Assembly (NCBI RefSeq): GCF_000764305.2
Contig: NW_025936059.1
Coordinates: forward strand, 186,001-250,000
DNA length: 64,000 bases
Reading direction: 5' to 3'
From: Hyalella azteca
Taxonomy: Eukaryota > Arthropoda > Malacostraca > Amphipoda > Hyalellidae
How positions within the stretch are numbered: the stretch's first letter is position 1; every line of letters begins with the position of its first letter. The translations under genes and the position numbers were made by a program. The notes under the pieces are model-generated. The model had not been told where the DNA came from and ran no database searches. It worked only from the letters and a program-made list of their open reading frames with translations. Shown piece after piece: positions 2,746 through 46,267 of this stretch.

Positions 2746-2990
2746 GTACACCACACTCTACCATGTTTACCTGGGTACACCACACTCTACCATGTTTACC
2801 TGGGTACACCAAACTCTACCATGTTTACCTGGGCACACCAGACTCTACCATGTTTACCTGGGCACACCAGACTCTACCATGTTTACCTGGGTACCCCACA
2901 CTCTACCATGTTTACCTGGGTACACCACACTCTACCATGTTTACCTGGGTACACCACACTCTACCATGTTTACCTGGGTACACCACACTC
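2746..2990. repeat. 29-bp tandem array over exon 17 donor (9 units)
   Basis: Starts every 29 bp from 2746 to 2978. On the minus strand each unit carries CCCAG|GTAAACATGG. The array stops beside a single N at 2742, suggesting a gap-filled repeat of unknown true length. Confidence 0.93.
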
Positions 2991-3417
2991 GTGACACCAG
3001 CAATGGAGGTGGTCGCCGCAGGGTTACTTGCCGCTGTGGTAGTGGTGGTAAGAGTTGCAGTGGTAGTCGCATCCGTGGTTGTTGCGGTGGTTGTGCCGAT
3101 AGTGGTTGTGGTGGGAGTTGTGATAGGAGTTGTTGTGGAAGTTGATGTTGAAGTAGTAGCTTGACTTGTTGGTGTTGATGTGACCGTGGTCGTGGTGGGT
3201 TGAGATGTGGTAGTGGATGTTGTGGTTGTGGCGGCTGGAGATGTGGCAGTGGATGTTGTTGTGGTTGTGGTTGGTTGAGAGGTGGTTGTGGTAGGTTGAG
3301 AAGTGGTGGTGGATGTTATGGTCGTGGTAGGTTGAGGAGTGGTGGTGGATGTTGATGTGGTAGTGGTAGGTTGAGAAGTGGTAGTGGAAGTGGTTGATGC
3401 CTCAGTTGTGGTTGTGA
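2974..3417 (-). CDS. Exon 17: Thr-rich mucin segment
   Basis: Acceptor TTGTTCCAACAG|TCACAAC (phase 1), donor TACCCAG|GTAAAC (phase 1). About 147 codons of Thr with Ser, Pro, Gln and Ala, e.g. TSTTTSQPTTTT, ending ASNPAATTSIAGVTSVVYP. The donor lies in the first unit of a 29-bp tandem array that repeats it. No confident next exon is visible; a weak candidate begins at 289 (acceptor ATCTTTCAG) and would add ten codons then a stop. Confidence 0.65.
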
Positions 3418-6400
3418 CTGTTGGAACAAAAATATCAGATGAGAACGTATGAAGACGCAACCGTTTTCGGCTTCGCAATCAATCACAGCCAATTTTAATC
3501 GTCGAGGATTTTGAATGTATCTCGATATAAAGGTTCTACTTGTATAATTATTATCACAATAAGATTAAAAATATCAATTACGCCTACATTTAGGACAAAA
3601 TATGCAATAAAATATGAAAATTGTTTCTACAGTTGTACAATTGTACAAAAATGTACAATTACGATAACAATAGCAGACCCCTAACAAGTATATTTGCAAA
3701 TTCCCCTGCCAGTATATTTGCAGTGACAGCATAGCACTTATGGTTGAGACACGCACTTATGCATGGCGCGGGATCGCTGATGTTGAGACTCCAGGTGCCT
3801 CCAGCCTGACACTGCGGCAGCACCGTGACCGTGCAGCTCACAAGGAAGCGACAGGCTCTAGACATGATTCAAGTGATTCCTTTACATTGCTTCATGTCTG
3901 CTATACCGCAACACTATGTACGGGCGCGCATAATGCTATTTCTACCAATATTGTGCAGCTCACTAGACTGCGACAGGCTCTAGACATGATTCAAGTGATT
4001 CCTTTACATTGCTTCATGTCTGCTATACCGGAACTCTTTGATCGGGCGCGCATAATGCTATTCTTACGAGGATAGTGCAGCTCACTAGACTGCGACGAGC
4101 TCTAGACATGATTCAAGTGATTCCTTTACATTGCTTCATATCTGCTATAGCGGAACACTATGTACGGGCGCGCATAATTCGGGCGCGCATAATGCTATTC
4201 TTACCAGGATAGTGCAGCTCATTAGACTGCGACAGGCTCTTGACATGACCGACCTGAGCGCCGGGCAGCGCATACGGTGAAGCAGGCGCGCCGTACCCCA
4301 TGTCAGGCTGCGTCAGGCCGTTGTAACGTAAATGAGGTGCCAACGTCTGGTCCGGGACTTTGCACATCACTGTAACAAATTGTCAGGGGATTTTCTACTG
4401 CACCAGGTCCTGTTATTTTCTTGTGCTGTATTTTTATTCTCCATATTGACGAAAACGCTGAATTTAAAACTACACTTCTTCCATCAAGTTTCGAGACAAT
4501 AGTTCAAACTGTTTACACAGATTATGCCTCACTAAATGAACGGTTGACAATCATTTGGTATATATTGTGTGGATTAACATTTTTATTTTTTATTGAAGTT
4601 AAATAATTTGAGAATTTGGCACAAGGAAGTACAAGGTTTGATCGTTTCTATGGAACCTGTTCTCAGAATTTAATTGTAGTGGTTTTAGTTTTCAGTAAGA
4701 TTTTGTAATGAATGGGGCTTGATTCTTTCTTTACTTGATATCGACTTTGAACTTAATTCGACTGGTTAAAAAAGAAACAATAATGAAAATTAAATCACAA
4801 CTTGCTGGCATATATCATGTATTCGATTAATAAATGAAATCGAAAGTTTGCCTTTCTTCCCTTCAAGATATTTCAACGAGCTTTCAACATGTTCGGAAAA
4901 AGCTTCCTATTTTTTATAGTTAAATCTTTCAAGTCAGTGTTTCACAATTGCAAAACTTGTATCGAGAAGTAGCAAATGTTACGATTTGGGCACTTTTATG
5001 GGGAATAAATGAGAAATTATTCTGAGATAATACTTCTTACTGAATACTTCGTTATTTCGAATACTTCGTTGTTACCGATAATGTTACTGAAAACTTCGTT
5101 ACTTCGAATACTTCGTTGTTACTGATAATGTTACTGAATACTTCATTATTTCGAATACTTCGTTGTTACTGATAATGTTACTGAATACTTCGTTACTTCG
5201 AATACTTCGTTGTTACTGATAATGTTACTGAAAACTTCATTATTCAAACTTGTACTCACACACGCACGGCGGCAGCGGACGGTCTGTACTGGGTGACTCG
5301 TACGTCCAGCGCATGTCGCAGCCGCACCCGCTAGAGAGGGTGGCCGGGTACGTGGAAGCCTGAAATGTTACGATTTGTTACGATGAATCACGACGCTATA
5401 TACCATTAAATTGGGCAAACTTTGACAAGTGGGAGAAATTACAAATTAAGTAAAATAGTAATACGACACTTTGTATTAATTAAATAATTAAAATGATCAC
5501 TGATTACATACTGATTACTTCCTGACTTCACATTTAATAGCAGTTCAAATTTAAATTTCCGACTTTCTTGTACATATTAGGTAAATTAAAGCGAAGTAAT
5601 TTCAATACTTCGAGGAAAAGATACTTCGAGTATGTGATTAGCTTCAACGGATCATGATTCGCTAATGTCTAACTTACTTCGATTTCGAGTTTGCCTCAAA
5701 TTTTGGTATCAAAACCAAATAGAATGTATGGAAAGTTGCACTGAAGTGAGGAAATACATGAAAAGTGCCAGCGCATCTAAAATTCACTTGCCTTGTGTTG
5801 AAATACTACAGAAAATTGTCATCATGCGTCACGAATGACAGCGACGCTTTCGCAAGCAGAAAAAAATATAACTCAGTACTCACTACAGTGAGTGACAGAA
5901 AGCGCATTTTCTCGTCGACGAAAACGTGAAGTCACGGACAGACGGACGGACAGACAGACGGACGGACGGACATGGCGAGCACAATAGTGCATTTTTTCCA
6001 TAAATGAGAAAATGCGCTAAAAACACCTGCCTGAAAAAAGTGATCAGCAGGACAAGTGAACTTCATGGAGCTGTCGTGCCGAACGGAGCCATCCCACTCC
6101 CTGGTGCCGTTGGTGGGAGCAGCACTTGGCACCGAGGAGCTGCAGTTCACAACTGGAACGACCACAGACCATGCAACAAACATAAGTTCTCTTCGAGATG
6201 ATGATAAGATAATAGCTTCAGCATTAGATAACTCCTTCATTTCAATACAATATGTGCAAGCATCAGCATTACAGCCTTTTCAAAAACCACTCACGTACAC
6301 TCATGTTCTAATGAACTGAGTACATTTGTACCGCGCTACTCACAGACGCAGCCATGGAAGGTGTTGGGGTAGTAGGAGAAGTCAGGCTGCACTTATGTTA

Positions 6401-9400
6401 TAATGAAATATTTACATGTGTAAGGCGCTACTCACAGACGCAGCCATGGAAGGTGTTGGGGTAGTAGGAGAAGTCAGGCTGCACTTATGTTATAATGAAA
6501 TATTTACATTTGTAAGGCTCTACTCACAGACGCAGCCATGTAAGGTGTTGGGGTAGTAGGAGAAGTCAGGCTGCACTCATGTTATAATGAAATATTTACA
6601 TTTGTAACGCGCCACTCACAGACGCAGCCATGGAAGGTGTTGGGGTAGTAGGAGAAGTCAGGCTGACAGACCAGCGGCTCAGCGTTGGACGCGTTCAGGG
6701 CGGTGATGTGTGGGCACTTGCAGCTGATGCGGTCCTCTGTACCCACGGCACGACCTGGCCCCGTCGTGCTGGGATACACCTGCAATGCGAAATATCCTCG
6801 AATTATTTAGTTTCCATGGTACTACTTAAAAACTGTTACACCTGCAATGCGAAATATGAAATATCAATACAATATGCAATATGAAAAATCCTCGAATTAT
6901 TTAGTTTATACGGTACTACTTAAAAGCTGTTACACCTGCAATGCGAAATATGAAATATCAATGCAATATGCAATATGAAATATCCTCGAATTATTTAGTT
7001 TATACGATCCTACTTAAAAACTGTTAGCAGAGCTGTAAGACACGAACAAAAAATTATATTTTTCTTATAATTTTGCAAATATTTTATTTATACGTCCACA
7101 TATGTTTGTTTCTAAGTTTGTTTATAACTTTTGTTTATTATGTCCACGTACTTCAGACGACTCTCATTTTTCTCATTTCAAGATTAAGCATTTCACTTCA
7201 CAATTTAGACACAAATGTGCGTTTTTAAGAGTTGAATTCTACAGCTTACTTCAGAAATGATCCCAATAGTAGTGGCATCTATGGCGTTGATGCGTCCGAT
7301 GATTGTACTAGAATTACACAGCGGCTCGTCGAGCAAAGGCAACCGCAGCTGCAGTGCATACAGAGCAGCGGGGGGGCCGGGGACACAGCGAGATGACTCC
7401 GGGGCAGGAGGGCTGCTCAGCGGCGGGACTTTGACCACCGGCGTGCAGTTGCTGGAGGCGTTCCCTGCTGCTACACTGGATGTTACTGGCGTAGTGTCGG
7501 GTGCAAGCGTCGTAGATGTAGTTGATGTTGTTGATGTAGGATCAGTCGGTGCAGGCGTCGTAGATGTAGTTGATGTTGTTGATGCAGGATCAGTCGGTGC
7601 AGGATTTGTCGGTGGAGGATAGGTTGATGTAGAGTTTGTTGATGTAGTATCAGTCGGTGCAGGCGTCGTAGCTGTAGTTGACGTTGTTGATGTAGGATCA
7701 GTCGGTGCAAAATTTGTTGGTGAAGGGTAAGTTGATGTAGAATTTGTTGATGCAAGATCGGTTGACGTAGAATTAGAGTCGAAGGCTGGTGGGTTGGTAA
7801 CAGAATCGATTAGATTCCCGCTGCTATCGGTCACAGAACGCTTACGTTTACGGCCTGAAGATGTATCTGTCGGATTCAGGTCTGGAGCCGCGGTCGTATT
7901 TAGGGACGTGGTGGCCCTAGCAGATGTGGTCGTGTCGGCGGAAGTGGTGGTGTCGGCGGAAGTGGTCGTGTCGGCTGAAGTTGTGTCGACGGAAGTTGCC
8001 ATGTCGGCGGAAGTCGTCGTATGGGCGGAAGTTGTGTCGGCGGAAGTCGTCGTGTCGGCTGAAGTTGTCGTGTCGGCTGAAGTTGTCGTGTCGGCTGAAG
8101 TTGTCGTGTCGGCTGAAGTTGTCGTGTCGGCTGAAGTTGTCGTGTCGGCGGAAGTCGTCGTGTCGGCTGACGTTGTCGTGTCGGCTGAAGTTGTCGTGCC
8201 TGCAGAAGTGGTGGTTTTTGCAGAAGTTGTGTCTGTGGAAGTTGTGTCTGCTGAGGAAGTCGGGTCTGCGGACGTCACGAGGTTCGTTGTCCCGGAGCAA
8301 ATTAACTAGAAAAAGATAAGATTTATTCCTACTCAATTCCAAGAATGTTTTTCAGTCTTTTGGGCAAATGCTAAAAAGAATCATGTACAAAATTTTGTTT
8401 GTCAGGTTCTTTTAACAGATTTTCATTTTGAGTAAATGAATAGGCTAAATGTTTAACTTCAGTTTTTTTTACATTACATCACAATAATCATCACTACATT
8501 TTTCACATCACATCTCTTCATTTCTTTCAGTTCACAATATGAAAATCGAAAGTTCTGAACAAGATAATGTTCATATCACATCCCTCCATGAAGAAGAAGC
8601 ATATTTATATTGTACCCTGTAACTTTTTGATGCTGTGATGAACACTAACTATATACTTTTTCTTCAGCATACCCAGTTGATTTATAATTCTAAAAATTCA
8701 TATTTTTTGTTAAAACTTTGATTTTGTTCTAAAAATTATAGACCCCCAATCATATTTTAAATTAATTTTAGAGTACGCAAGTTCTACCAAAGTGTCATTA
8801 ATTATTTTTCTTTAAATTAACTGAAGATTCCCATCGATCAAATGATTAAACAATATAAGTAATAAAAAAAAATCACTGAAACGTGAAGATTTGTTAAACA
8901 ACAAGAAATTTCGTATATTAGGCAATACGAACCGAGACGCAGAGGTAATAGGACTCCTTATAGTGCGCGACAATCTTCCTATCGATCAACTGATAAAACA
9001 ATATTAGTAATAGAAAAATCACTGAAACGTGAAAACTTGGTAACAACAGTAAATTAGCAACAACATTTAGCAGCACGAACCGAGACGCAGAGGTAATAGG
9101 ACTCATTGTGGTACGAGACGAGCTTCCTGTAGAGCTCCAGGGTTTGGTTGGGACACGTAGAGTGATGGCTGCCTTCGATGACGCGTTTCAGGACCTGACA
9201 AAATTCAAGCGTTTAATCTAATGCATTACAAACATGGATTGATCACTTTATCGTTCAGGAATATTTATCGGAATGCTGGGAATTTTAACACAACGAGCGC
9301 AGCTAAACATGAACAAATTTCGTTGTGCTGTGAAGCTGGATTGAGATATAAATCTCAAGACCCTAACTTCAACTGTAATGTGTTATCTCGCATGTACCTC

Positions 9401-12400
9401 AACTGTAATGTGTTATCTCGCATATACCTCAACAGTAATGTGTTTCTTCGCATGTGTCTCATTTGTGAAAATGGAGCTTTGCTGGTGCCACTCTCTGGCT
9501 GAATGCAGTGAGAAGCAAAGGTCTCGAACTCGTCCTAAGATGTCTACACAGCTGGTGCGGCTAACTCTCAAGTGTGTTCGAGGCCAGCAAATAAACAGCC
9601 TAATTAATGAGTGCGGTCGATTCACCTCTTACTTTGTAGCAACCTTTAATGGCCTCAATCAAGGAAATGCGTTACTGATCTCTATTTAGCAAGTGTATTA
9701 TCTATTATACAGTGTATTATATCTATTTCGCCGTATTTGTGCGAAATAATTAGGAATAAATAAACGCTTAAATTAAATGCTTGAAACAATCAAATCTAAA
9801 ATTTAATTTTTTACAACCTAAAAAGAATTTCTTTGGGCCCAAACCAATTTTGAAGCCTCATCAAAACCAAGAAATTGTTCGAAAAAGTAACTATAAATTT
9901 CTGAAGGGTTCTTCAGATAATAAATTGTATAGTTGAAGAAATAAAAAGATCAAATTTCCCATTTCGAAGTTCTGTGATTAGTAGCCTTGAAAATAGGAGC
10001 TAAAGAAGACATTGGAACATTTTGTCGACTTTTTATCACAAACTTTAATTTTGAACGAATTTTTGAGACAACGAATCAAAATTTCACAACTGAGAAGCAC
10101 CACGATCACGCCTACTGTATAGCGCCGCTCCTCTCCCATCAGTTAATGTACGAATTTGACGCACTCAACAACTACCGAAAACATTACTTTAATTATATTA
10201 TCATCATTACTACCGAAATCTTTCGTTACTTAAGTGGTAAAGGCGTAATTATAATCATGTATTAACCCCGAAGGAACAGTGGTGAAGGCTCAATTAGAAT
10301 CATGCATTAACCCGGAAGGAACAGTGGTGAAGGCTCAATTAGAATCATGTATTAACCCGGAAGGAACAGTGGTGAAGGCTCAATAATTAGAATCATATAT
10401 TAACCCCGAAGGATCGAAGAGCCGCCTTCTCGCACTCAGAGGCGTTGCTGTAGACGCCAGGATTCTGTCGCACCACCGAGTAGTTGCTTGCCATGGTCGC
10501 TGCCACTGACGCCGGCTGGCAGTTGATGGTCCCATTGTTGCCCATAATAATCTGCCATACACCAACAAACACAACTAATTACTGATGAGGTGTACGACTC
10601 AAATTAATAGCTCAGCTTAGCAATGCGTAGCAGCTTGACAATCAAATAACGCGCCTACACTGTTAGAAAAAATAACCGTTAACGGTATTACCGGCGTTTC
10701 AGTGGCCGGTCGGCACGTGAAAAGAAACACAGTGTCGCCGTTTTTATTCTAATTTAACACTAGAAATCCGTAAAACATCTTATAAAAACGGTGGAACAGT
10801 TTGTTTTCACAGGACGACCGGCCACTAGAACGCCAGTGGGACCGTTTTTCACCGTTTTTTCTAACAGTGTAGGTGATGTGGTACAGTACAGTATCCTGAT
10901 AACACAAGCTGATAAAACGTTGTAGAAAACTTAAAACCACGGTGAATGGGATGATACCTGTATGATGATCGTACACCTTCACGGTTGAGATAAATTCGTC
11001 TTATAGAATAATAATGGATTAAGATAATTAAAATTTTACACAAACTATTAAAGTAACTTCAATTATGAATGAGTTTCACGTTTTACCATGTAAATTGGGA
11101 TATTCTAACTACTACTCATTAACATAATTCAAATAACACCACTTGACCTCAATATACCTGATCATACTTTCATCTAAGAAGTTTATAGTAAAGCACTTGA
11201 ATTCCAATTTTCCTGAGATCGTATAACTTTAAAAATGATCAATTAATTTATATTGTCATTTATAAATGACAGGCAGCTGACCGCTTCCTGCGTGGCGCAG
11301 GTCGGCGGGCTGACGGTGGAGCACGAGGCTGGGTCCGGCGCCCGGCCCAGCGGCAGAGACGCTATCTTTGGTCCGTAGTAAAGCTCTTCAGTGATCTGAT
11401 GTGGACAGCAATACGGTCATTTTATTAAACATTTTGCATGATGCGGAGTCTCACAATCAAACAAATATAATACTTTTATGTAAACGAACTAACTAGTATA
11501 CTACCAGCACGCTACATCGCGGAGCGTTTATCAGCTGTACTGAGGGGGAGGTACTAAAGGCTGCTAGCCCTTTTATAGGCTTCGCTTCCGCCCACAACTA
11601 AGGTCTTGATCGCGTGATCTATCACGTGTCTTCCAGATGTTGACTCGTTATCAATCTCTATCAGTTCGAGTGAATATTAAATCTCAATTACATACAATTA
11701 TGATGATTATAATGAGAAGCCAGATTGACACGGGACACAACGTTGAAATCATAACTGCGATCATATCTGCACGATGTAACTATTTTATTCCGCGAGACAG
11801 TTTTCACAGTTTTCTTACAAACATCTTAAAAACGTCGCTACAGGCAGGCTCAACTACGATAAACAGAACTGGACGTGGTGATAACTGCACACTGACCGTG
11901 ATGGCGTCAGTATAGACGTGTTCCCCCGAGGTGTAAGCAGCGGTGGCAGACGTGGTCTTCGTCATGGGCTCCTGGAAGACCTGCGCGGTGCTGAAGAGGT
12001 AGCAGCCGTAGGTGTTGTACGCCACGCGGTTGCTCTCCATCTGCTCGTCGTAGCGGCACCCGATCAGCTCCATCTTCAGCCTCACCGGGTTCAGGGGCGA
12101 ATTTGGGATTTCAGTATTGTTCACATTGATGAGGTTTAAAGATTCTGATATAAATTGTAAAATAGACCATGATGTTCTCATGTTCAGTAGTTTTGTTGCA
12201 GTGAGTATGTTATTTCCAAGGTATTTAATGATCATCAAAGTTATTCTACATTGACAGATGAAAAGGCCATTGAAAGTGATGAACTTTTCGTACATATGTC
12301 GACGACCAGTTATCAGAGAACTAAGATCGTGCTTGATCGCACTAATTTAAGACGTATATTGCAATTTTTCGCAGCATTGTTAGCTGTTGACAAATCTCAG

Positions 12401-18400: not shown

Positions 18401-21400
18401 TCCACTCGCACACATGCACATCAGATTTTAATAAAATACTTTCATTTAAGTCTGCGAAATCATTCTATCATTGACTCAAGCAACTATATTGTTGAACGGA
18501 GCATTATTAACCAACAAGAATAAAGTAATCTAACTACATGCGGTAGCCCACCTTCTATGTCGCAGATGAGGTAGCCGTGCTGGGTTAGGTATGGCGCCTG
18601 CACGAAGAGCTTCTTATTGATGTACACATCCTCGCATCCAGCCGACGCCTTCACATCAGCAGTTGACTTTCTGCGGTATAATAAGTCTGCTGATGTGGTA
18701 AATAGGAAATAATAAGTTATTAAACTGAGTAGTTCGGGATAAATTTATTACATGAAAATTGCAATTTTTTGGTCAGTTTAATATGGAAAACAACTGATCT
18801 TATTTGTGGCAAACATTTTTTGCCCCCGACATCAAATCCATGCGTTTGTTTAGAATTAATCGTAAAGGATTGAAGACTTCAGTATAAAGTTTATTTACAA
18901 CTTTGAGAAATCTTAATGATCCACGAATTTCCCTCACTGAAATTCAAGCGATCTGAATTACTTAATACAACCGTGCTCCATTATTATGAACGGAAGATTA
19001 ATTTATTTAACCATAAAAAGCACAGTGGCATGACTGGTGTAGTCGATCTTCGTAGCGTATGCATTGACATCAGAAAACACATTGGACTGATTGATGTGTG
19101 CGAATCTGTCGTTTAAAGAAACGAGCGATGAAATGGATGCGCTCATGGATTGCAATACAAGTTGTTAGAAATGACAAGGCGACCGGATCCTCTCGCCCTG
19201 ACATGAAACTGATCGTTCTTCATCTGCAGGTATGGGAATTATTGGTTTAGCAATTACTCATTTATACTTTTAAAATGGAGCAAGGCAGAAGAGTTGATAC
19301 GGTGTAGGAACATAACGCTGTTTGTGAAAAAGGCCGGAGAATAGTTTTACAATCGTCCATTACCGTCAGAGAACGCACACTGGCTAGGTTCGAATGGTTG
19401 TGTATTGATGTTTGCGATTTATTCATACTTTTCAGCATTATACTTTTTGTCATTTGTTTAGAGCATGTTTATTAAAATTTTCTTTATTTATTTCAGTAAT
19501 CCGAGTCAAATTATCTTTTCTTATGCGAAAGCCAACTGAGACCCAAGTGCTGATCCCTTACAACATCGGTATTCTTTGCTGTAGATATTCTACAACATAG
19601 ATTATATTCAACAATATTCTCGATATTTTCCGAACAATTACTTCAGCAAAGTAATCATCATTTCCTATCTCACGATGGGGATAGGGGCCCATACTTTCAA
19701 AACTCGTTAAGTGAACGTAAGTACTTACGCTCTATTTTCTTGTCTATGATTGGTGGATTTTGCTTGAAAGACCGTCAATGATTGGCTGATGAACTTACGA
19801 TCTCTTAACTTTTTTTGAAAGTAAAGGTTAGGGAACGATAGTGGATTCCCACAGTCACGTGTCAGATCATTTGGCTTTTGTTTTACTTATCATCTTGAAA
19901 TTAGTACTAAAAATACTTATCTCAACTGGGAAAAAATGGCTAGAATAAGCGTTCAGTGATGTAGCTAGCTAAAAAATGGATAGATATCGATTTGCACGCA
20001 AAAGCATTTCCTCTTATTTGTGGTGTTATTGATTTCACCAATTACTTTTTAGCATGGAATTCACCTGTTGATGTTGAAAAATCTGTGATTTCTGAAAAAT
20101 GTGCACCAAATTTGATGAAAAAAGTAAATTTTTCTGAAAACTTTTAAACACCAAACGTTTCGGATACTCTTAATTAATAGCCATATTAATTGCACTTGCA
20201 GCTGCCGTGTCGTTAGAGCAGATGCGGGCTGACAGACTCACCCAGTGCTCGGGGTGCCAGATGCATCTGCAGCTGCCGTGTCGTTGGAACAGGTGCAGGT
20301 GTAAGTAGCGACGTCGAGGGTGTAGGTAAGGGCCGCCTGTCCGGCGCAGAGTTCGAGGCACTGGGCGTCGGTGATGCGGCAGAAGGTGGCGGTGAAAGGA
20401 GAGCTGGCCACCGCAGCACCGGAGTCTGCGCACAATTCAACCAGCGCCATTAATATGGATTGAATGCCTGAACAATCATTTGGTGGAAGCATAATTCAAC
20501 TAAACCAGTGACATTAATACGAATTGAATGCCTGAGCTTCACCAATTACTTTTTAGCATGGAATTCATCTGTTGATGTTGAAAAATCTGTGATTTCTGAA
20601 AAATGTGCACCAAATTTGATGAAAAAAAGTAAATTTTTCTGAAATCTTTTAAACAGCAAACGTTTCGGATACTCCTAATTAATAGCCATATTAATTGCAT
20701 CTGCAGCTGCCGTGTCGTTGGAGCAGGTACAGGTGACAGACTCACCCAGTGCTCGGAGTGCCAGATGCATCTGCAGCTGCCGTGTCGTTGGAACAGGTGC
20801 AGGTGTAAGTAGCGACGTCGAGGGTGTAGGTAAGGGCCGCCTGTCCGGCGCAGAGTTCGAGGCACTGGGCGTCGGTGATGCGGCAGAAGGTGGCGGTGAA
20901 GGGAGAGCTGGCCACCGCAGCACCGGAGTCTGCGCACAATTCAACCAGCGCCATTAATACGAATTGAATGCCTGAGCAATCATTTGGTGGAAGCAAAATT
21001 CAACTAAACCAGCCCCATTAATACGAATTGAATGCCTGAGCAATCATTTGGTGGAAGCATAATTCAACTAAACCAGTGACATTAATACGGATTGAATGCC
21101 TGAACAATCATTTGGTGGAAGCATAATTCAACCAAACCAGTGACATTAATACGGATTGAATGCCTGAACAATCGTTATGAAGAATTGCAGGCGAGAATAG
21201 CGATTCGTGATTGTTAATGAGGTAATAGTATTAGTAAGGAATTAGTATTATTGAGGGAATCGTAACAGTGACAGTATGTTATTTAGTGCAACATTTTTAA
21301 AATCGACAGTATGTACGAATAAAATGGGAGATGTAAAGTTATTTCATCTTTATAATGCATGTTGAATCGTTGGAAAAATTAAAGATTACGAGTGTCGTCA

Positions 21401-24400: not shown

Positions 24401-27400
24401 GCGGTCATTAGAAAAGTACTCCTCGACAGTAAACGCACGCTGCTCACTTGTCCAATGCATAGTGGCAACTGACTAAACGGAACACAAAACTTCATAATCT
24501 TGCCACGCTGCTTGGCGCAAAATACAAAACAGTAAGTTTCAGTGAATCACCCTGTATATCCCACATCTAATGGGTGTATTTACAAAAAGTGTACACACTT
24601 TCAATGAGTATGCGAGATTTCATATGTAATGAACAGCATCGAGCAGCAAATAATCCATGCAAATCATGACTGTAAGTACGGATATTTTTGACGTAGAAGC
24701 TATAAGACTACACGCATGCGTGCCGTCTTATCAACACCTGCATGATGGTCATTCATACGCGATGCTCGACTATATACGCGCTGGCTTAATTTTTAATAGG
24801 ATAACCTACGAGTTAATCAAGGTTATATTTCAGTAAGCATTAGTAACGCTAGATCAAACACTGGTAACGCGTCATGAGAGCATGGGTGAGTGACATGAGT
24901 TTTCTCCCAAAAACAACGCAAAAAATACAGTAATCTTTCCTCTATCGCGGGTGTTACTTTCCAGGCATCGGCCGCGATAGTTAAAATCTGAGATGGGAAA
25001 TTGATCAACTGATAGTAATTATTCATGTGTTTATATTATAAGGTCTTGAATAATTCATTGTACAAAGTATATCTGCACCAGGACCCGATAAAGTTCCAGC
25101 AGTGCTGCTGAATAAGTGAATCGAAGCACTGAAACTTCGCTCACAATGCTCTGAAAAGCATCGTTGATGAAGAGAACTATTCCTCAGGGCCTCAAAGTTC
25201 AACTAATGTTCACGTTGAAGCAACTCGCATATCGACGACTTGAAGACGGAAGGTGACGAATACGACGACCGGGGACCATGTATCCGCGAATGATTTTTCT
25301 TATCAATGTTTCTTGAAAACCCGCGATGAAGTGAATCCGCGGGAAGTTTAAGCGCGTTATAGAGAAGGATTATTGAAATCTAACTATCGGTAGCCATTCA
25401 AGCATTAAAATAGAGTTAGAAGAAAAGTATTAGATGTTGTAGCAGGATGATTTAGTGAATAACATTCCCATTTAGAAATAACATGCTGGTAATACAAACA
25501 ATTTATTCTCACAATAACAATTAGTGTTTAATTTAATACTACAGCTAGCCAATCATTCATCGCTGTGAATAACCGGTCAATTGGCGAACGAGGTAGATAA
25601 CCAGCCAATACCAATAATTATTAACAAAATATTATTCGGCATTGCAGAAGCGATTCTAACGTTTACTGCGTTGTCAACGTTACCTGATAACACAGCGGAC
25701 CATAACTACTTTTTCAACTTTGACCTCGTCGACCAAACTTCTTCAGGTGCCATTAGGTGCTTCGATAAAAACATGACATGCTGTAAAACTCTTCAGTGTT
25801 GCAAATTTATCTTTCTGCGCTAAATGTTGCCATGATTCGCTGTGCCGGGAACTTAGGCGATGGATTTGCTCAAGTTTATCGCGACTGAACCGTGAGCCTG
25901 GTTATCTGTTATCGATCCGTGCATCAAAGCCTGCACGGAGCAAAATTATTATGTTCTATTTACGATGAGATAATTTACCGGCTAATCAAATAGTGATTGT
26001 ATCATTTATGTATTATTTGTAGAGAACTGCTTTCATGGTTTACTTTAATGAACCTTGATCCAGAGAACTTATATTATCAGTCTGTTTATATCGCAAGTTC
26101 ACAAGGAATTTAAAAGCAAAGAAAACGCCAAGAAAATTCAACATATTGATATTGAAAACCAGATCCAGAGAGGGTCGTACTACAATATAAATAAATAAAA
26201 TCGTAAATAATTATATTGTGCAAAGTCTCTAAACCAGAACATTAATTGGTAAGAACTCCTTATGATTTCGTTGTGAATTAAGAAAACTACATTCATTTGG
26301 GAAAATAACGTTTCTAGACTACTTATTCTTGACTAGAGCATGTTTCCTATACTGAGCATCCCGTTTACTAGAATCTAAGCCAATTATTCACTTCAAAGAT
26401 TTCTCTCTACTAACGCATTCAAATTATAGTTTTGATTTATTACCACTGTTTTAATATTTATCGACTACTCATGGGATATAGCGTTAATTAAAAAAATAGA
26501 GCTTGAGAGAGACTTGCACTTAGTGTAATTATATACCTCATTTGCATATATAAATTCTACAATATTCAAATTAATTGCCTCGAAAATTTGATGCGTTTTG
26601 CCGTGTAAAAATGAATATGATAATCCGCGATGGCCATTGTTTAATTATTGACCCTCTGCAGCCTGCCCTCCATTGTGTGCAACGCTCATGAGAATAAAGA
26701 AATACTAATGTTAATTATTTTATTACTGGGTATTTGATAAGAAAATATTCACTCTGTCATTCCACGACTGCAACCCTGGACATTCATGGGGAAGTATCAT
26801 TACTCTGTCATTCCGCGACTGCAACCCTGGATATTCATGGGGAAGTATCATTAAAACTTACATAACGTACGTTCTAGTTCCGAGAAAGTTGGACGAAATT
26901 TATCATCACCCAAATTTGACTGCTGCAAATGGATAGAAGAGTTTGGGCGACTTCAGCTTCTGCGCACTCGTTTTATGCAAGTTTTCTCCTAAGAACAAAG
27001 CAGGTGAATTTTTCGTTGACCAATCGTGGGCAGACTATTATGAGTTGACGAATGACAGCTTCATGGAGCCTTATATTAGGGACAAATGATGCCTTTTTGT
27101 TCCCAATGCAATGCAGTTTACTGAAACATTGTCCATTAAAGCAATTTTACGAGCTCTCATTTACTGTAATGCCTCTATTGTTCTCTTACTAAATTTGCTC
27201 ATGACCGCGCACTTAATCTTTGATATAAAGCAGCCCGATTGTGTGGCCAGCAATCAGTGTAGCAGTGTCTGCACAATATCCAGCAATCAGTGTAGCAGTG
27301 TCTGCACAATATCCAGCAATCAGTGTAGCAGTGTCTGCACAATATCCAGCAATCAGTGTAGCAGTGTTACACAATATCCAGTAATCAGTGTAGCAGTGTT

Positions 27401-28928
27401 TGCACAATATCCAGCAATCAGTGTTGCAGTTCTTGAATCTAAATCTTTCTATATGACCGAACCGTTTGCGTTTGTAATAATGCAATTATTTTTTATTGAA
27501 TTTCGGATTTTGTTGCATTCTCGCGCTTTAAACGATATTTTTGATGATTATATACCAAATATAACTCAAGAACAAAGTTCAGCGTGAGCGACAGCAAAAA
27601 AGAATTGCAAACGATTGAAAATGGATCAAAGTGACCGAAATATATTGAAACATAAACATATTCACCATCCAGGTTGATAAGGAAATAAATTTCAAAGCAA
27701 TTTTAACAATTTTCGCAGAAAATGATTACTTGGTGCAGAGCGTGCAGCTGATGCAGAGCATGCAGCTGATGCAGAGCGTGCAGCTGATGCAGAGCGTGCA
27801 CCTGATGCAGAGCGTGCAGCTGATGCAGAGCGTGCACCTAAGGTTAGATATTGCATCAATTCTTCAACCTCGTTTTTTCGACGCATAAACTTCTATTCAT
27901 CAATGCCTCCGCTAACATTAAATATTCGTACAGCTTCGATTTATCGATACATCAGATCAGGTTTATAAATGCATTAGTCGCCATTTATTACCGTTCCAAC
28001 TCTTGTCGGGGTAAGAAATTGTGTAACATTTTATAATGTTAAATGATCGACTAGATTAAGAAAACTCGGCGAGCAGATTCCAAAACATGGCTTCAAAACT
28101 TACGGAATGAAGATTTACTATCCAGTCAAACCCAGGATATTGCGACAAATCTCTAAACCTACCCTTAATTTCTCGATAAACTGTAGCTACAGGTATTCAA
28201 CATCCACTTATTCAACGTCAACTGAATTTCCAGCGTAATAAATTCAGCGCCATGTGTCTTGATATGAAGCCACCAAGAGTCAATAAATCACATGAAACCC
28301 TTGCTGTAGTTTATTAATCTTTGCTTATTATTCACTTATATTGTTTGATTTATTGAGCTGCATGGCTATTAATTTTTCTCCATCTTAGGCTTAATAATAA
28401 TTTCTCTCCGTCTTAAACTTGCATCCAAGAAAAATTTCTCAAAATAATAAGAAAAATGTCAAAAATTTGAGCTTGTCATTTAATCCAATATAATAATTTA
28501 CAGTCGGAAATTTTCCTCACGCGTAATCCGCTAATTGGTTAACAAAATGCCGCTAACGTTATTACAGCCTAAACATTTTTAGGACAATTTTGTATGAACA
28601 TATTTACCACTTCAACCATTAGTACATTTTTCAGTCGGAAGAAAATTTTCCGTCTAAACTCATTAGTACATACAGGTACAGTCGGGCGAGAAACACATTA
28701 GTACTCACCGGTACAGTTGGGCGAGAAACACATTAGTACTCACCGGTACAGTCGGGCGAGAAACACATTAGTACTCACCGGTACAGTCGGGCGAGAAACA
28801 CATTAGTACTCACCGGTACAGTCGGGCGAGAAAGGCGCTACATCAGCCACTGCTGTCCCGCCCAGCGTACAGATGAGGGTGAGGAGACCGAGGGTAGCCC
28901 TCACATCGCTGTTGCGTGTCGCAGTCAT
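2974..28928 (-). CDS. Secreted multidomain mucin/sushi protein, 17 coding exons (3' end not found)
   Basis: Chained by hand from acceptor/donor sites and splice phase; every junction joins in an open frame, giving about 1,205 codons. Order of the product: signal peptide (residues 1-28), Cys-rich segment (about 39-100), a galactose-binding/discoidin-like segment (about 105-310, ending in VRLKMELIGC), Cys-bearing segments (310-490), a Thr/Ser mucin exon (489-840) with a polybasic RKRKRS site near residue 641, a Cys-rich piece (841-893), two sushi/CCP-like modules (about 894-970 and 971-1058), and a Thr-rich segment (1058-1205) that continues past a phase-1 donor. The signal peptide and O-glycosylation-type repeats imply an extracellular or surface protein; its ligand is unknown. 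I recognise no named orthologue. Exon 2 exists in two copies. Tandem arrays cover many of its splice sites. The least certain joins are exon 6 to 7, exon 13 to 14 and exon 15 to 16. Confidence 0.7.
3757..3855 (-). CDS. Exon 16: second half of sushi module 2
   Basis: Proposed acceptor TCTAGAG|CC (phase 1), donor GCATAA|GTGCGT (phase 1). Encodes ACRFLVSCTVTVLPQCQAGG then TWSLNISDPAPCI; the G-G-T-W-S...P-A-P-C end matches the sushi consensus strongly. A different acceptor (CTGCCGCAG|TGT) in the same frame is possible, so the 5' border is less certain than the 3' one. Confidence 0.5.
3831..4250. repeat. About 122-bp tandem array linking exons 15 and 16
   Basis: GTGCAGCTCA starts at 3831, 3953, 4075 and 4212. 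Units share GACAGGCTCTAGACATGATT and GGGCGCGCATAATGCTATT. The donor TATCCTG|GTAAGAAT of exon 15 is mirrored in the other units as TATCCTC|GTAAGAAT and AATATTG|GTAGAAAT. Confidence 0.88.
4205..4369 (-). CDS. Exon 15: first half of sushi module 2
   Basis: Acceptor TTTGTTACAG|TGATG (phase 1), donor TATCCTG|GTAAGAAT (phase 1). Encodes MCKVPDQTLAPHLRYNGLTQ, PDMGYGAPASPYALPGAQ and a tail ending LHYP. An internal CAG|GTCGGT is a possible alternative donor. Its last 80 or so bases are related to the 122-bp units that fill the interval to exon 16. Confidence 0.5.
5035..5248. repeat. 47-bp tandem array beside exon 14 donor (4 units)
   Basis: GATAATGTTACTGA recurs at 5077, 5124, 5171 and 5218. The array ends roughly 10 bases inside the intron after the exon 14 donor and, unlike the others, does not include it. 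Confidence 0.9.
5260..5359 (-). CDS. Exon 14: second half of sushi module 1
   Basis: Acceptor AACATTTCAG|GCTTCC, donor GCGTGT|GTGAGTAC (phase 1). Encodes ASTYPATLSSGCGCDMRWTY and then a stretch ending LPPCV; the C..W......LPPC pattern is the classic end of a sushi/CCP domain. A 47-bp tandem array begins about a dozen bases after the donor. Confidence 0.6.
5901..6018. mobile_element. Short element with 13-bp inverted ends
   Basis: AGCGCATTTTCTC at 5901 and its inverse GAGAAAATGCGCT ending at 6018, enclosing a GACG/GACA microsatellite (5936-5972). It lies immediately inside the intron after exon 13. An end of another copy appears right after the N at 22634. Confidence 0.6.
6025..6152 (-). CDS. 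Exon 13: first half of sushi module 1
   Basis: Acceptor GTCGTTCCAG|TTGTG (phase 1). Encodes FVNCSSSVPSAAPTNGTREW then DGSVRHDSSMKFTCPADHFF, which has the CCP layout of Cys, Pro-rich turn, N-G, then a strand ending in a second Cys. The donor is either GCAGGT|GTTTTT (end 6025, phase 0, joins exon 14) or GCAG|GTGTTT (end 6027, phase 1, leads to a stop). A small inverted-repeat element starts within 7 bases of this donor. Confidence 0.55.
6319..6680. repeat. 92-bp tandem array over exon 12 donor (4 units)
   Basis: ACTCACAGACGCAGCCATGG begins at 6338, 6430, 6522 and 6614 with a regular 92-bp step. Each unit contains the last 45 or so bases of exon 12 and the donor GTCT|GTGAGT. Past the first donor the frame reads TGT GAG TGG and then leaves the exon unit; in the other units GTGAGTAG supplies a stop. 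Confidence 0.92.
6620..6779 (-). CDS. Exon 12 (160 nt), Cys-rich
   Basis: Acceptor GCATTGCAG|GTGTATCC, donor GCGTCT|GTGAGT (phase 1). Encodes VYPSTTGPGRAVGTEDRISC, KCPHITALNASNAEPL and VCQPDFSYYPNTFHGCV: five cysteines including C-K-C. Both splice sites of this exon are copied in flanking tandem arrays: the donor four times in a 92-bp unit, the acceptor three times. Confidence 0.7.
6775..7024. repeat. Tandem units over exon 12 acceptor (3)
   Basis: TGCAATGCGAAATAT starts at 6781, 6843 and 6937; each minus-strand copy restores TTTCGCATTGCAG|GTGTA. The true exon uses the copy at 6779. Confidence 0.85.
7250..8305 (-). CDS. Exon 11: Thr/Ser mucin domain with polybasic site
   Basis: Acceptor TCTTTTTCTAG|TTAATTTGC, donor TCTGAA|GTAAGC; 352 codons, phase 0 on both sides. 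It opens LICSGTTNLVTSADPTSSAD, then runs through a hexapeptide array of the type TTSADT (18-bp units, a dozen or so), a basic island SSGRKRKRSVTD, a second Thr/Pro/Ser block of TDPTSTTSTT type, and a Cys-bearing end (SSRCVPGPP, then DEPLCNSSTIIG). Such tracts are O-glycosylated in mucins; RKRKR|S fits the furin R-x-K/R-R rule. Long open frames on the other strand here are shadows of the repeat. Confidence 0.75.
7920..8220. repeat. 18-bp coding minisatellite in exon 11
   Basis: GTCGTGTCGGCTGAAGTT units, many perfect, encode the TTSADT repeat on the minus strand. Confidence 0.9.
8826..9120. repeat. 148-bp duplication over exon 10 donor
   Basis: ACCGAGACGCAGAGGTAATA at 8931 recurs at 9079; the downstream intron sequence (CACTGAAACGTGAA) is shared as well. 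The distal copy holds the last bases of exon 10 and a matching CTCG|GTTCGT. Confidence 0.85.
9081..9194 (-). CDS. Exon 10 (114 nt)
   Basis: Acceptor TTTTGTCAG|GTCCTG, donor GTCTCG|GTTCGT; phase 0 on both sides (38 codons). Encodes VLKRVIEGSHHSTCPNQTLE then LYRKLVSYHNESYYLCVS. The last 40 or so bases plus the donor are duplicated 148 bp downstream. Confidence 0.6.
10249..10416. repeat. 45-bp tandem array over exon 9 donor
   Basis: The motif ATTAACCCCGAAGGA recurs at 10261, 10306, 10351 and 10399. On the minus strand each unit restores TTC(C/G)GG|GTTAAT, i.e. the exon 9 donor. Reading past the first donor gives GTT AAT ATA TGA. Confidence 0.9.
10405..10551 (-). CDS. Exon 9 (147 nt)
   Basis: Acceptor TATGGCAG|ATTATTATG, donor TTCGGG|GTTAAT; phase 0 on both sides (49 codons). 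Encodes IIMGNNGTINCQPASVAATM and then a stretch with three N-glycosylation sequons (NGT, NYS, NAS) and a second Cys. The donor has GTTAAT rather than GTRAGT and is the last element of a 45-bp tandem array that repeats it three more times downstream. Confidence 0.6.
10654..10873. mobile_element. 220-bp MITE with long terminal inverted repeats
   Basis: Left end CCTACACTGTTAGAAAAAA, right end its inverse. The arms extend about 55 bp with mismatches and both contain GTGGCCGGTCG. No coding capacity. Confidence 0.85.
11282..11395 (-). CDS. Exon 8 (114 nt)
   Basis: Acceptor CCACATCAG|ATCACTG, donor GAAGCG|GTCAGC; phase 0 on both sides (38 codons). Encodes ITEELYYGPKIASLPLGRAP then DPASCSTVSPPTCATQEA, with two cysteines. 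Confidence 0.6.
11897..12144 (-). CDS. Exon 7 (248 nt), end of discoidin-like segment
   Basis: Acceptor TATATCAG|AATC (alternative GGTGAG|G at 12081/12080), donor ATCACG|GTCAGT (phase 0). Encodes a segment reaching NPVRLKMELIGCRYDE, which matches the typical C-terminal strand of F5/8 type C domains (R-L-E-L-x-G-C), then YGCYLFSTAQVFQEP and a Thr-rich stretch. Confidence 0.6.
12476..12600 (-). CDS. Exon 6 (125 or 135 nt)
   Basis: Acceptor ACGACACAG|GTCC. Encodes SKPSDSSAPEAIPVAFGNAS and then YVRIPVRRF, reminiscent of the ARYVRI strand of discoidin domains. Two donors are possible: GTGTGG|GTAATC (end 12476, phase 1), which joins exon 7 in frame at its best acceptor, and TT|GTAAGT (end 12466, phase 2), a stronger consensus that would need a weaker exon 7 acceptor at 12081. 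I chose the first on phase. Confidence 0.55.
12868..12952. repeat. TATTATGTA microsatellite
   Basis: Runs of TATGTATTATTATGTATTA-type sequence in the intron between exons 5 and 6. Confidence 0.8.
13406..13551 (-). CDS. Exon 5 (146 nt)
   Basis: Acceptor TTGTCCGCAG|ATACGC, donor TACTC|GTGAGC (phase 2). Encodes IRFNHSILVRYIDVWRQDES and then a Tyr/Asn-rich strand region. The sequence xFTIRFNxSIxVRYIDVWR resembles the central strands of F5/8 type C and fucolectin-type galactose-binding domains, where a receptor loop is followed by a strand of the type V.sI.v..R; this is a resemblance only. Confidence 0.7.
14151..14302 (-). CDS. Exon 4 (152 nt)
   Basis: Acceptor GTCACAG|GTGTCGG, donor TTCACA|GTGAGA (phase 0). 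Encodes VGLCRGNLIHGASGHLHPDM followed by a segment ending FKADNPFT. Reading on past the donor gives a stop after about four codons, which supports the donor. A 41-bp tandem array begins about 25 bases upstream of the acceptor. Confidence 0.7.
14325..14552. repeat. 41-bp tandem array upstream of exon 4 acceptor
   Basis: Units of TTAACACGTTTCAGCGCCAG plus a GATGTAATAGAGAAAAAGAGA tail, later units losing the tail. A single N at 14466 lies inside, so copy number in the assembly is not reliable. Confidence 0.9.
14855..15170. mobile_element. Diverged repeat family (copy 1)
   Basis: Contains TTCATGCATTGTCTCTGACT, a GTGTTAAATATCGATTATAA block and GTGAAGTTAAAGAGAAGTGT. Related copies, partly inverted, are at 31540-31735, 32090-32290 and 32330-32640. 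Confidence 0.6.
15171..16727. other. Intron sequence, no gene seen
   Basis: No exon with good splice signals that would fit the phase of exons 3 and 4 was found, and no repeat stands out apart from short direct repeats such as CATAGATGATCA at 15588-15612. Confidence 0.4.
16728..17971 (-). mobile_element. Tc1-type DNA transposon, degraded
   Basis: Ends show an imperfect inverted repeat, ATAAGGGAAACACC at the left and ATAAGCGAAACCCC read inward from the right. On the minus strand a transposase core remains: GTINIRDYLVILED, then FQDDNAQLH, matching the second catalytic Asp of Tc1 (FQQDNAPxH). After a frameshift PPQSPDLNIIEHLW gives the final catalytic Glu of the DDE triad. Stops, shifts and a short local triplication of GAGGGACCAATTCTGG (about 17290-17395) disable it. 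It lies in the intron between exons 3 and 4 of the minus-strand gene. Confidence 0.85.
16908..17123 (-). pseudogene. Tc1 transposase catalytic-core fragment
   Basis: A 71-residue open stretch with NIRDYLVILEDQVHPMVQ and AIFQDDNAQLHIAG. The usual SPDLN motif is one frame away, showing a frameshift at about 16925. It is not functional as it stands. Confidence 0.8.
17972..18540. other. Intron sequence, nothing recognised
   Basis: No repeat or coding signal identified. Confidence 0.4.
18552..18670 (-). CDS. Exon 3 (119 nt)
   Basis: Acceptor TATACCGCAG|A, donor ATAGAAG|GTGGGC. Enters phase 2 and leaves phase 1. Encodes KSTADVKASAGCEDVYINKK and then LFVQAPYLTQHGYLICDIE, with two cysteines. Together with exons 4-7 it looks like a beta-sandwich ectodomain. 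Confidence 0.7.
18671..20160. other. Intron between exons 2 and 3
   Basis: Apart from the MITE at 19686-19828 I see no structure; short open frames here have no recognisable motif. Confidence 0.4.
19686..19828. mobile_element. MITE, single copy of the 1710 family
   Basis: Starts GGGCCCATACTTTCAAAA and ends TTTTTTGAAAGTA; the middle matches the 1710-1968 units on the opposite strand (ATTGGTGGATTTTGCTTGAA). Confidence 0.7.
20242..20425 (-). CDS. Exon 2, copy A (184 nt)
   Basis: Acceptor TGTGCGCAG|ACTCC; donor ACTGG|GTGAGTCTG. It enters in phase 1 and leaves in phase 2, joining exon 1 as a GAC codon and exon 3 as GGA. It encodes a small Cys-rich segment (FCRITDAQCLELCAGQ, then TYTCTCSNDT); the CLELCA followed by C-x-C is loosely like a WSC-type module but too short to assign. 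A near-identical copy B lies 504 bp away. Because 184 is not a multiple of three, both copies cannot be spliced in series without a frameshift. Confidence 0.7.
20746..20929 (-). CDS. Exon 2, copy B (184 nt, alternative or duplicated)
   Basis: Same acceptor, donor and length as copy A, offset by 504 bp. The two coding differences I can see (TCT CCT against TCT CCC, and GGC ACC against GGC ACT) are both synonymous, so the encoded peptide is identical. Either copy gives an open frame between exons 1 and 3. It may be a very recent duplication, a mutually exclusive exon pair, or two haplotypes assembled in tandem. Confidence 0.6.
21171..23986. other. First intron, no gene seen
   Basis: AT-rich. 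A single N at 22634 is followed directly by GAGAAAATGCGCT, the terminal repeat of the 5901 element. Short open frames at 21662-22254 and 23723-23908 have no motif I recognise. Confidence 0.45.
23987..24556 (-). mobile_element. Internally deleted DNA transposon (mariner/Tc-like)
   Basis: Terminal inverted repeats TACAGGGTGATTAA and, at the right, the inverse of TACAGGGTGATTCACT. The 138-residue minus-strand frame (24044-24460) starts MHWTSEQRAFTVEEYFSNDR, the helix-turn-helix start common to a group of arthropod mariner-like transposases, then jumps straight to a C-terminal part, WPDRSPYLVSCDILFGYLES and RTLPHQKNNIRQAIVNIPV. The catalytic middle is missing, so it is non-autonomous. Confidence 0.8.
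25050..25210 (+). pseudogene. Possible reverse-transcriptase fossil
   Basis: The frame reading APGPDKVPAVLLNK then a stop resembles the APGPDxIPxxLLK motif near the start of non-LTR reverse transcriptases. It is too short and broken for more. Confidence 0.3.
25211..26743. other. First intron, nothing recognised
   Basis: An 80-residue open frame at 25581-25823 has no motif I know and no splice context in a consistent phase. Confidence 0.4.
26748..26851. repeat. Two copies of a 52-bp direct repeat
   Basis: ACTCTGTCATTCC(A/G)CGACTG followed by CAACCCTGGA(C/T)ATTCATGG, twice in tandem. Confidence 0.85.
27243..27428. repeat. 33-bp minisatellite
   Basis: CCAGCAATCAGTGTAGCAGT plus GTCTGCACAATAT, about six copies, some shortened. 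Because 33 is a multiple of three it keeps a 158-residue frame open (27111-27587, repeating SNQCSSVCTIS), but nothing else supports a gene. Confidence 0.9.
27733..27842. repeat. 18-bp minisatellite
   Basis: About six units of GCAGCTGATGCAGAGCGT. Confidence 0.9.
28661..28835. repeat. 35-bp tandem array over exon 1 donor (5 units)
   Basis: Units start at 28661, 28696, 28731, 28766 and 28801. The last unit carries the true exon 1 end and donor; the next three repeat CTGTACCG|GTGAGTAC exactly, and the first has GTACCT|GTATGT. Extending the exon past the first donor reads GGT GAG TAC TAA. Confidence 0.9.
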
Positions 28929-41179: not shown

Positions 41180-41217
41180 CCTGTCTCTTATACACATCTA
41201 GATGTGTATAAGAGACA
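41180..41217. other. Library junction adapter (artefact)
   Basis: CTGTCTCTTATACACATCT directly followed by its inverse: two 19-bp Tn5 mosaic ends head to head, the circularisation adapter of transposase-based mate-pair libraries. The flanks are not to be trusted as contiguous. Confidence 0.97.
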
Positions 41218-41340
41218 GCTACTATAGTTCGGCCAACAAAGTTATTCATCCAAGTTGACTTGATTTTACTTGAACTAAATTGTATAACTTCTCAAAGAAT
41301 ACTTTCTCATAAATTATGAATTGTGAACTGCATAAGCCCT

Positions 41341-41378
41341 GTCTCTTATACACATCTAGATGTGTATAAGAGACAGGT
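41341..41378. other. Second library junction adapter (artefact)
   Basis: The same 38-bp palindrome again, 161 bp later. A 78-residue frame reading through it yields the peptide SYTHLDVYKRQ, a telltale translation of this adapter. Confidence 0.97.
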
Positions 41379-46062: not shown

Positions 46063-46087
46063 AGCGGCAATGGTATATGTACTACTG

Positions 46088-46267
46088 CATAGTGACAAAG
46101 CAGAGTTTCTTAGACTCTCCCTCAAGTTCATTTTTGAGTCCTATAAGTAGACCAGTAAAGTATCCTGGATACCAACATTATAATACTTAAGAAATTTGAT
46201 TAAATCTCGAGTAAATGAGGAAATTAAAAATGAACTGATTCTAAAAGAGCTCTGGTTTGCCACTATG
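46088..46267. mobile_element. hAT-type MITE, family A, copy 3 (inverted)
   Basis: 180 bp, CATAGTGACAAA to TTTGCCACTATG, with an exact 8-bp duplication TACTACTG at 46080-46087 and 46268-46275. It abuts the 5' end of the retrotransposon. Confidence 0.9.

Follow-up and report, generated by a model that had tools for sequence, protein, structure and literature searches.

Introduction

Internal tandem repeats at exon-intron boundaries are known from human genes located in segmental duplications. Their units are of 30 bp, with 4 copies on average, and 162 alignments show repeats at a boundary, 27 intron modifications remaining after manual check (PMC2812944). Tandem duplication around splice motifs has also been reviewed as a route of intron gain (PMC3443670), with cases described in Drosophila (PMC2891723). 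The review's table, in the portion available, counts only gains with novel splice sites and not simple duplications (PMC3443670). Direct repeats of 4 to 30 bp near intron ends have been taken as footprints of insertion (PMC11782384).

The birth, movement and multiplication of introns and splice sites are an old question for which there are few live examples. Diverged, multicopy border duplications in ordinary genes would let the process be caught in steps. A genome with such duplications would allow one to measure which splice-site copy is chosen, and it could separate borders as mutational weak points from places where harmless duplications remain. In 2007, Zhuo et al. reportedly described human introns embedded in tandemly arrayed direct repeats, with a likeness between the two ends of an intron. 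An earlier survey is said to have dealt with small within-gene segment duplications taking in splice sites, not with minisatellites packed at borders. In our literature search, no title among those listed announced a genome-wide enrichment of tandem arrays at splice sites.

We analyzed a stretch of 64,000 nucleotides from the amphipod Hyalella azteca, hereafter the window, in which a sequence-only reading had noticed tandem arrays of unrelated sequence at many splice sites of one gene. That reading knew of no named phenomenon to match them, a point that is not supported in view of the human boundary repeats (PMC2812944) and of intron gain by tandem duplication (PMC3443670).

Results

Gene model and homologue. 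The splice borders of the window gene were set by reading frame, phase, splice motifs and one homologous protein. The predicted gene has 18 coding exons plus one duplicated exon (exon 2) and would encode 1199 amino acids with no inner stop (Table 1). Exon labels run from E1 to E19. The segment 18262-18163 was discarded as a false exon 4, as it clashes with the frame and is missing from the homologue, and the label E4 is unused; the queries of the homologue search and of the Pfam scan were built from the first gene model, which still included this segment. In the final model the acceptor of exon 8 was placed at 12080, and E14 appears to use a GC donor at 6031 (CAG/GCAGGT), which is supported by the homologue alignment.

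The homologue, hypothetical protein P0001 of the amphipod (sand-hopper) Trinorchestia longiramus, was the sole match listed at an E value of 10 or better among 7992 candidates scored, with 45% identity over 99% of the query. At most junctions the residues correspond to those of this protein, which makes the borders concerned independent of the arrays. For the E18 donor the support comes from phase and frame, because the C terminus does not align to the homologue. When the first 480 residues were searched against the genome, all 11 matches were at the window gene, and no second genomic copy was found with this query. The protein had been labeled mucin/sushi. The first half of the label holds, as Ser/Thr-rich tandem repeats are present in E12 and E18, where all periods listed are multiples of three. 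The second half obtained no Pfam support, sushi being absent among the matches listed for the protein pieces (scanned at E 1) and for the homologue (scanned at E 10).

We also noted by eye a 115-bp tandem unit at 1714-1937 with a related single copy at about 19700-19820, in the intron after E2b, which makes it a dispersed repeat. At 16760-17800 on the minus strand, a broken stretch resembles, by eye, a mariner or Tc1-type transposase remnant and holds a 24-bp array. Other features of the window are the endonuclease part of a non-LTR retrotransposon (Pfam Exo_endo_phos_2; 44353-46140, minus strand), split by a gap of 209 Ns, and a C2H2 zinc-finger open frame of 376 codons (60079-61209, plus strand).

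Tandem arrays at the splice sites of the window gene. We scanned the gene by searching all diagonals for local repeats, a procedure that gave zero matches in three shuffles, and obtained 24 repeat intervals in 26.6 kb. Twelve of the 36 splice sites lie inside a tandem array, namely, the donors of E1, E2a, E2b, E10, E11, E13, E16 and E18 and the acceptors of E2a, E2b, E13 and E17 (Table 1). All seven donors listed by the sequence-only reading were recovered, with units of 35, 504, 45, 148, 92, 122 and 29 bp (its exons 1, 2, 9, 10, 12, 15 and 17 correspond to E1, E2, E10, E11, E13, E16 and E18). The acceptors that it had named, the second of them with a "perhaps", were found in arrays as well, that of E13 (its exon 12) in a separate 94-bp array, whose copies carry gcattgcag/gtg, and those of E2 within the 504-bp duplication. 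Its two near misses were also found, at 15 bp from the E15 donor and 20 bp from the E5 acceptor. Beyond that list, the E17 acceptor shares the 122-bp array with the E16 donor, the whole intron after E16 being inside this array, and a 64-bp array precedes the E2a acceptor at a distance of 13 bp. Four arrays located far from any splice site are exceptions to the pattern.

The units of the different arrays gave no mutual match at an E value of 0.01, apart from the overlapping 64- and 504-bp units, and no matches were found elsewhere in the window. The 92-bp array was compared with the genome, where its one match was itself; the units of the other arrays were compared within the window. As the units are unrelated, a single spreading satellite was rejected, in agreement with the initial description. 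Nor did we find copies of one element in many introns, as an introner or another dispersed intron-creating element would leave.

Table 1. Features of the window gene (positions are those of the window; a slash separates the two bases at a splice border)
Feature	Position	Strand	Relation to splice sites and remarks
Ser/Thr-rich (mucin-like) protein gene	28928-2367 (26.6 kb)	minus	In-frame joined exons and homologue
35-bp array, ~5 copies	28656..28833	minus	Spans E1 donor (28814/28813)
Three arrays (51, 33, 18 bp) in first intron	26751..27839	minus	974-1960 bp from any splice site; exceptions
64-bp array	20943..21173	minus	Ends 13 bp before E2a acceptor
504-bp tandem duplication	20034..21041	minus	Holds whole exon 2 twice: E2a 20929-20746, E2b 20425-20242
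41-bp array	14323..14554	minus	Ends 20 bp before E5 acceptor; single N at 14466
45-bp array, 4 copies	10233..10413	minus	Spans E10 donor (10405/10404), 9 bp into exon
30-bp array in intron after E10	9369..9444	minus	174 bp from splice site; exception
148-bp array, 2 copies ~80% identical	8828..9128	minus	Spans E11 donor (9081/9080), 48 bp into exon
Coding tandem repeats in E12	7500..8269	minus	Periods 15, 18, 30, 48, 108 bp
94-bp array	6775..7026	minus	Spans E13 acceptor (6780/6779), 5 bp into exon
92-bp array, 4 copies	6298..6665	minus	Spans E13 donor (6620/6619), 46 bp into exon
47-bp array	5037..5244	minus	Starts 15 bp after E15 donor
122-bp array	3831..4248	minus	Holds E16 donor (4205/4204) and E17 acceptor (3856/3855)
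Coding tandem repeats in E18	3098..3396	minus	Periods 12, 24, 36, 39, 96 bp
29-bp array, ~8 copies	2746..2990	minus	Spans E18 donor (2974/2973); N at 2742 beside array end

Chance tests in the window gene. We tested 15 robust arrays, after setting aside those that are wholly coding. A splice site is spanned by 8 of them (1.7 to 3.4 expected) and found at a distance of 25 bp or less from 11 (2.4 to 4.4 expected). This set excludes six arrays that are short or of low complexity; a second set of 21 includes them. In the null model each array, taken as one unit or at full length, was moved over the gene or within 1.5 to 3 kb, never wholly inside an exon. Across the variants of this null, 7 to 8 spanning arrays were observed against 1.2 to 3.7 expected (P = 3e-5 to 0.01), and 10 to 11 arrays within 25 bp against 1.9 to 5.1 expected (P below 1e-5 to 0.0011). 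As the gene had been picked for this very feature, these P values come from a post hoc test.

Array units are GC-richer than the background (0.436 versus 0.372, P = 0.0015, for 42 arrays in random stretches of the genome). We also weighted the null by GC; the weights came from the 42 arrays of the random stretches, 160 kb in all. Under these weights 7 of 14 arrays spanned a splice site, against 1.8 to 2.8 expected (P = 0.0006 to 0.004), and 10 of 14 were near one, against 2.5 to 3.7 expected.

Arrays in four other genes. The comparison sample consisted of 24 random 10-kb stretches of the same genome (28 were drawn). Four genes with Pfam support were counted, chosen for their well-placeable exons: Munc18/ROP, xanthine dehydrogenase (XDH), a large lipid-transfer protein (LLTP) and an OATP transporter. 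Arrays had already been noticed in Munc18/ROP and XDH before these two were chosen, and LLTP was included despite an earlier scan showing few arrays. The OATP gene, whose frame is unbroken over 12 exons, was picked from a list of open reading frames made without an array scan, and its sequence was viewed while its borders were being placed.

The Munc18/ROP model omits the uncertain donor of the seventh exon and any unplaceable exon after it, and the XDH model omits one out-of-order Pfam-supported exon, one uncertain acceptor and one uncertain donor. In stretch L012 (7568-7759, minus strand), an XDH molybdopterin-binding exon stands out of order between earlier exons, by misassembly or exon shuffling. 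A galactosyltransferase exon (L009), a CUB exon (L010) and a peroxin-13 exon (L022) were too fragmentary to count. The four- and five-gene counts exclude arrays with a period greater than 200, and the five-gene count also excludes the 504-bp duplication. Two AT-rich LLTP rows, 6 bp from a donor and 18 bp from an acceptor, and one low-complexity Munc18/ROP row near no site were likewise left out.

Arrays span 6 of 16 splice sites in Munc18/ROP, 1 of 25 in LLTP, 1 of 23 in OATP and 0 of 18 in XDH, together 8 of 82. Of the 22 arrays counted in these genes, eight span a splice site, where 2.4 were expected (P = 0.0009); for 14 of them the nearest site is no more than 25 bp away, where 4.1 were expected (P = 1e-5). 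Nine of the 14 near arrays are supplied by Munc18/ROP, and LLTP has one counted array. Munc18/ROP alone gives P values of 9e-4 for spanning and 4e-5 for nearness; examples in this gene are the donors after GEYPAIR and AAPSR, crossed by repeats of a 30-bp and a 42-bp unit, respectively. Without Munc18/ROP, 5 of 9 arrays in the three random genes are near a splice site (P = 0.016) and 2 of 9 span one (P = 0.25). Given the spanned sites of Munc18/ROP, a gene from a random stretch, the feature does not belong to one gene. The sequence-only reading had held that something keeps generating duplications at the borders of this gene; the gathering of arrays at borders beyond chance stands, but its confinement to the window gene does not.

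When the five genes were pooled, 24 of 36 arrays were within 25 bp of a splice site. The expectation was 5.4 to 6.1 under uniform placement, 7.4 with the measured GC weights and 13.5 with a much steeper GC weight. Nearness kept P values of 2e-4 or less under GC weighting, and spanning alone reached P = 0.06 under the exaggerated GC preference. Base composition as the sole cause is thus insufficient under both the measured and the exaggerated weights.

The distance profile of the five genes has 16 arrays at zero (3.3 expected), 8 at 1 to 25 bp (2.1 expected), 3 at 26 to 100 bp (5.4 expected) and 9 beyond (25.1 expected). The first figure is 16 instead of 15 because one Munc18/ROP array that ends exactly at an acceptor was counted as distance 0. 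As the excess ends at 25 bp, a broad protection of exon-near arrays from deletion is disfavored. Eight of the 24 near arrays abut a junction without clearly including exon sequence. A nearby array was found at 16 of 57 donors versus 9 of 61 acceptors, a difference that is not significant (P = 0.11).

Array background and genome-wide counts. The random sample contained 41 robust arrays in 160 kb, covering 6.5% of bases. The authors of the T. longiramus assembly tabulate a tandem-repeat share of 6.18% (PMC7062882), obtained by a method different from ours. Among the five genes, Munc18/ROP ranks first in the GC content of exons and introns and in array density. The 3′ part of the window gene is a local hot spot, with 11 robust arrays in 8.3 kb when coding arrays are counted too.

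Pairs of donor words were counted over the genome together with reversed control words. Pairs of CAGGTAAGT 20 to 49 bp apart numbered 39 on 16 contigs, and those of the reversed control 40 on 17 contigs; with 2835 single sites versus 3532 for the reversed word, the pairs were about as common as in the control. For CAGGTGAGT we counted 760 pairs versus 228 for the reversed control and 4404 single sites versus 2766, i.e., about twice as many pairs per site, a count inflated by a dispersed 21-bp family, GGTTAGTGYCCCCAGGTGAGT. Several CAGGTGAGT pairs, among the matches listed, look like coding exon ends. No P value is given for the motif pairs, because pairs within one array are not independent. 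The GGTTAGTGYCCCCAGGTGAGT minisatellite family itself carries a consensus donor and recurs on six contigs (C181, C190, C455, C563, C619 and C703) among the first 100 of the CAGGTGAGT pairs.

Among 104 array units from the 24 random stretches, the donor motif occurred once versus 0.4 expected and 3 times versus 1.7 expected, differences that are not significant in a test of weak power that used the first unit of each array only. Together, a moderate genome-wide excess at splice sites is possible. Nothing in these counts points to a high uniform rate across the genome, and the five genes may exceed the average.

We weighed these figures against chance, that is, arrays falling anywhere outside coding sequence in a minisatellite-rich genome, followed by the picking of the most striking gene. 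The array density of the random sample, the hot spot in the 3′ part of the gene, the single counted array for the 25 sites of LLTP, the lack of spanning arrays in XDH and the CAGGTAAGT pair test without clear excess all agree with it. However, the local nulls, which keep array density within 1.5 or 3 kb, still gave P values of 1e-4 to 0.01 for spanning, Munc18/ROP repeats the pattern in a random stretch, and the excess stops sharply at 25 bp. We consider chance an unlikely account of the pattern.

Assembly quality and the exon 2 duplication. The two copies of exon 2 are identical at 182 of 184 positions and encode the same protein, and their flanks show 17 mismatches in 319 ungapped columns. 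The exons are thus less diverged than the flanks (P = 0.015). Including both E2a and E2b breaks the frame, as each is 184 nt long. They may be mutually exclusive exons or a false haplotype duplication; both fit the sequence.

We noticed a 38-bp palindromic sequence at 41181-41218 and 41339-41376 of the window, in stretch L013 from position 6667, within an array, and in L016 from position 2809, at an array end. We take it to be the Nextera mate-pair junction adapter, left untrimmed in the assembly.

If the pattern were an assembly artifact, false copies would have been introduced at GC-rich exon edges by gap filling or by haplotypes that were not merged. Five of the nine single Ns listed lie in or beside arrays (window 2742 and 14466; L003, L006 and L009), and one further N lies inside an OATP array. 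The adapter-like sequence occurs inside the Munc18/ROP acceptor array, at the end of the 29-bp array in L016 and twice in the window. The differences between E2a and E2b (1.1% in the exons, 5.3% in the flanks) are such as alleles might show. Yet the copies within the splice-site arrays differ by 4 to 19% (TRF matches), and by about 21% in the 148-bp array, which is above the expected error of reads or gap closure. Many arrays also have more than two copies, and arrays without N or adapter are placed likewise. An artifactual origin of the pattern therefore seems improbable to us. Nevertheless, the adapters and single Ns at arrays make copy numbers unsafe, and the E2 duplication is unsafe as well; the substitutions between copies argue that the arrays themselves are real.

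Predicted effect on splicing and on the protein. In all six donor arrays, reading on beyond the donor leads to in-frame stops, and in five of them a stop comes before the second donor. The unit length is divisible by three in only one of the six. Exact downstream copies of the donor 9-mer were found for E1 (three further copies), E10, E11, E13 and E18, and none was found within 200 bp for E16. Spanning arrays touch eight junctions, and at four of these (E1/E2, E10/E11, E11/E12 and E12/E13) the homologue alignment is free of gaps. At E2/E3 there is a 3-residue gap, and at E13/E14 a 7-residue gap lies six residues further on. E16/E17 has 13 extra residues relative to the homologue, exactly at the 122-bp array, and E18/E19 has no alignment. 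In a fast-evolving protein these unclean junctions need not be caused by the arrays. The simplest reading of the sequence is that the outermost splice-site copy would be used and the rest removed with the intron, the arrays being tolerated by-products.

The intron after E16 looks as an intron should if tandem duplication had enlarged or created it. If the arrays had made the introns, exonic tandem duplications would have created pairs of splice sites, and this intron, wholly in one array with its donor and acceptor in copies of the same unit and 13 extra residues in the protein, would be an example. However, it is the only such case among the 17 introns of the main model; elsewhere an array takes in just one intron end, and each of the six donor arrays carries in-frame stops past the donor, so that we give intron gain little credence as the general explanation. 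That selection retained the extra donors of a diversifying surface protein as reserve sites or for alternative splicing, an idea in line with the exact donor copies and the fast-evolving, mucin-like protein, is hardly credible in view of the early stops, the units that are not multiples of three, the E16 donor without a nearby exact copy and the presence of the feature in the conserved gene Munc18/ROP.

Discussion

Our preferred explanation, which remains tentative and to which we give a probability of roughly 45%, is that the arrays are neutral minisatellites that start at exon edges and survive since splicing keeps the outermost site. Local tandem duplications would arise in the minisatellite-rich genome of this amphipod with one end at or beside an exon edge and then expand like ordinary minisatellites. 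The copy touching the exon would retain a working splice site, and the extra copies would fall in the intron and be spliced away. The arrays would survive because they are nearly neutral. Duplications within coding exons would survive only when whole codons are added, selection against frame damage acting as a filter. We infer which copy is used, the neutrality of the arrays and the cause of the edge preference.

The duplications might start preferentially in or beside exon DNA, as GC-rich islands amid AT-rich introns, or else where matching sequence ends during repair. Selection against coding damage explains the avoidance of exon interiors and the whole-codon periods of the coding arrays, but not the avoidance of intron interiors. 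GC-rich seeds explain part of the edge placement and do not suffice. As nearness to splice sites stays significant under GC weighting, the GC driver is incomplete, which leaves room for a process tied to the junction itself. In its broad form, such a process would make exon-intron junctions preferred sites of tandem duplication in many genes of this amphipod lineage, with unrelated units, and would supply spare splice sites and occasionally new introns, such as that after E16. One candidate would be a repair process left without a template at the point where the homology of the exon gives way to strongly diverged intron alleles; damage linked to transcription and splicing would be another. We think that this broad form is rather doubtful.

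Given the excess of border arrays over chance in the five genes taken together, the gene borders of this amphipod may be weak spots for DNA duplication. Border arrays also call for caution in gene finding, as they offer many false splice sites. Boundary minisatellites and introns made by tandem duplication were already known; their sharp enrichment at splice sites looks new, in five genes of which one was chosen for the feature.

The introns that Zhuo et al. are said to have described have their ends in tandem repeats, as some have here, and the likeness of both ends holds here for one intron. Repeats near borders are also common to our gene and to the insertion footprints; as far as the available text goes, the latter compare the two borders of one intron, whereas our arrays are mostly at one end (PMC11782384). 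With intron gain by tandem genomic duplication, the arrays share the duplicated splice motif and, for the intron after E16, the inclusion of its two ends in a single array. Unlike in that process, most arrays here copy one existing border and yield no new intron; both intron ends come from one duplicated segment in the intron after E16 and in none of the other 16. The human boundary repeats were studied by comparing copy numbers between paralogues with RNA support, whereas we worked on a crustacean with splice borders drawn from sequence. Many unrelated arrays occur in one gene here, and the available text of the human report notes no test of boundary enrichment (PMC2812944). Their defining feature is nonetheless found in H. 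azteca: minisatellite units overlap exon-intron boundaries, at 12 of 36 sites in the window gene and 8 of 82 in the other genes, and the human unit size, as given in that text, falls within the range observed here.
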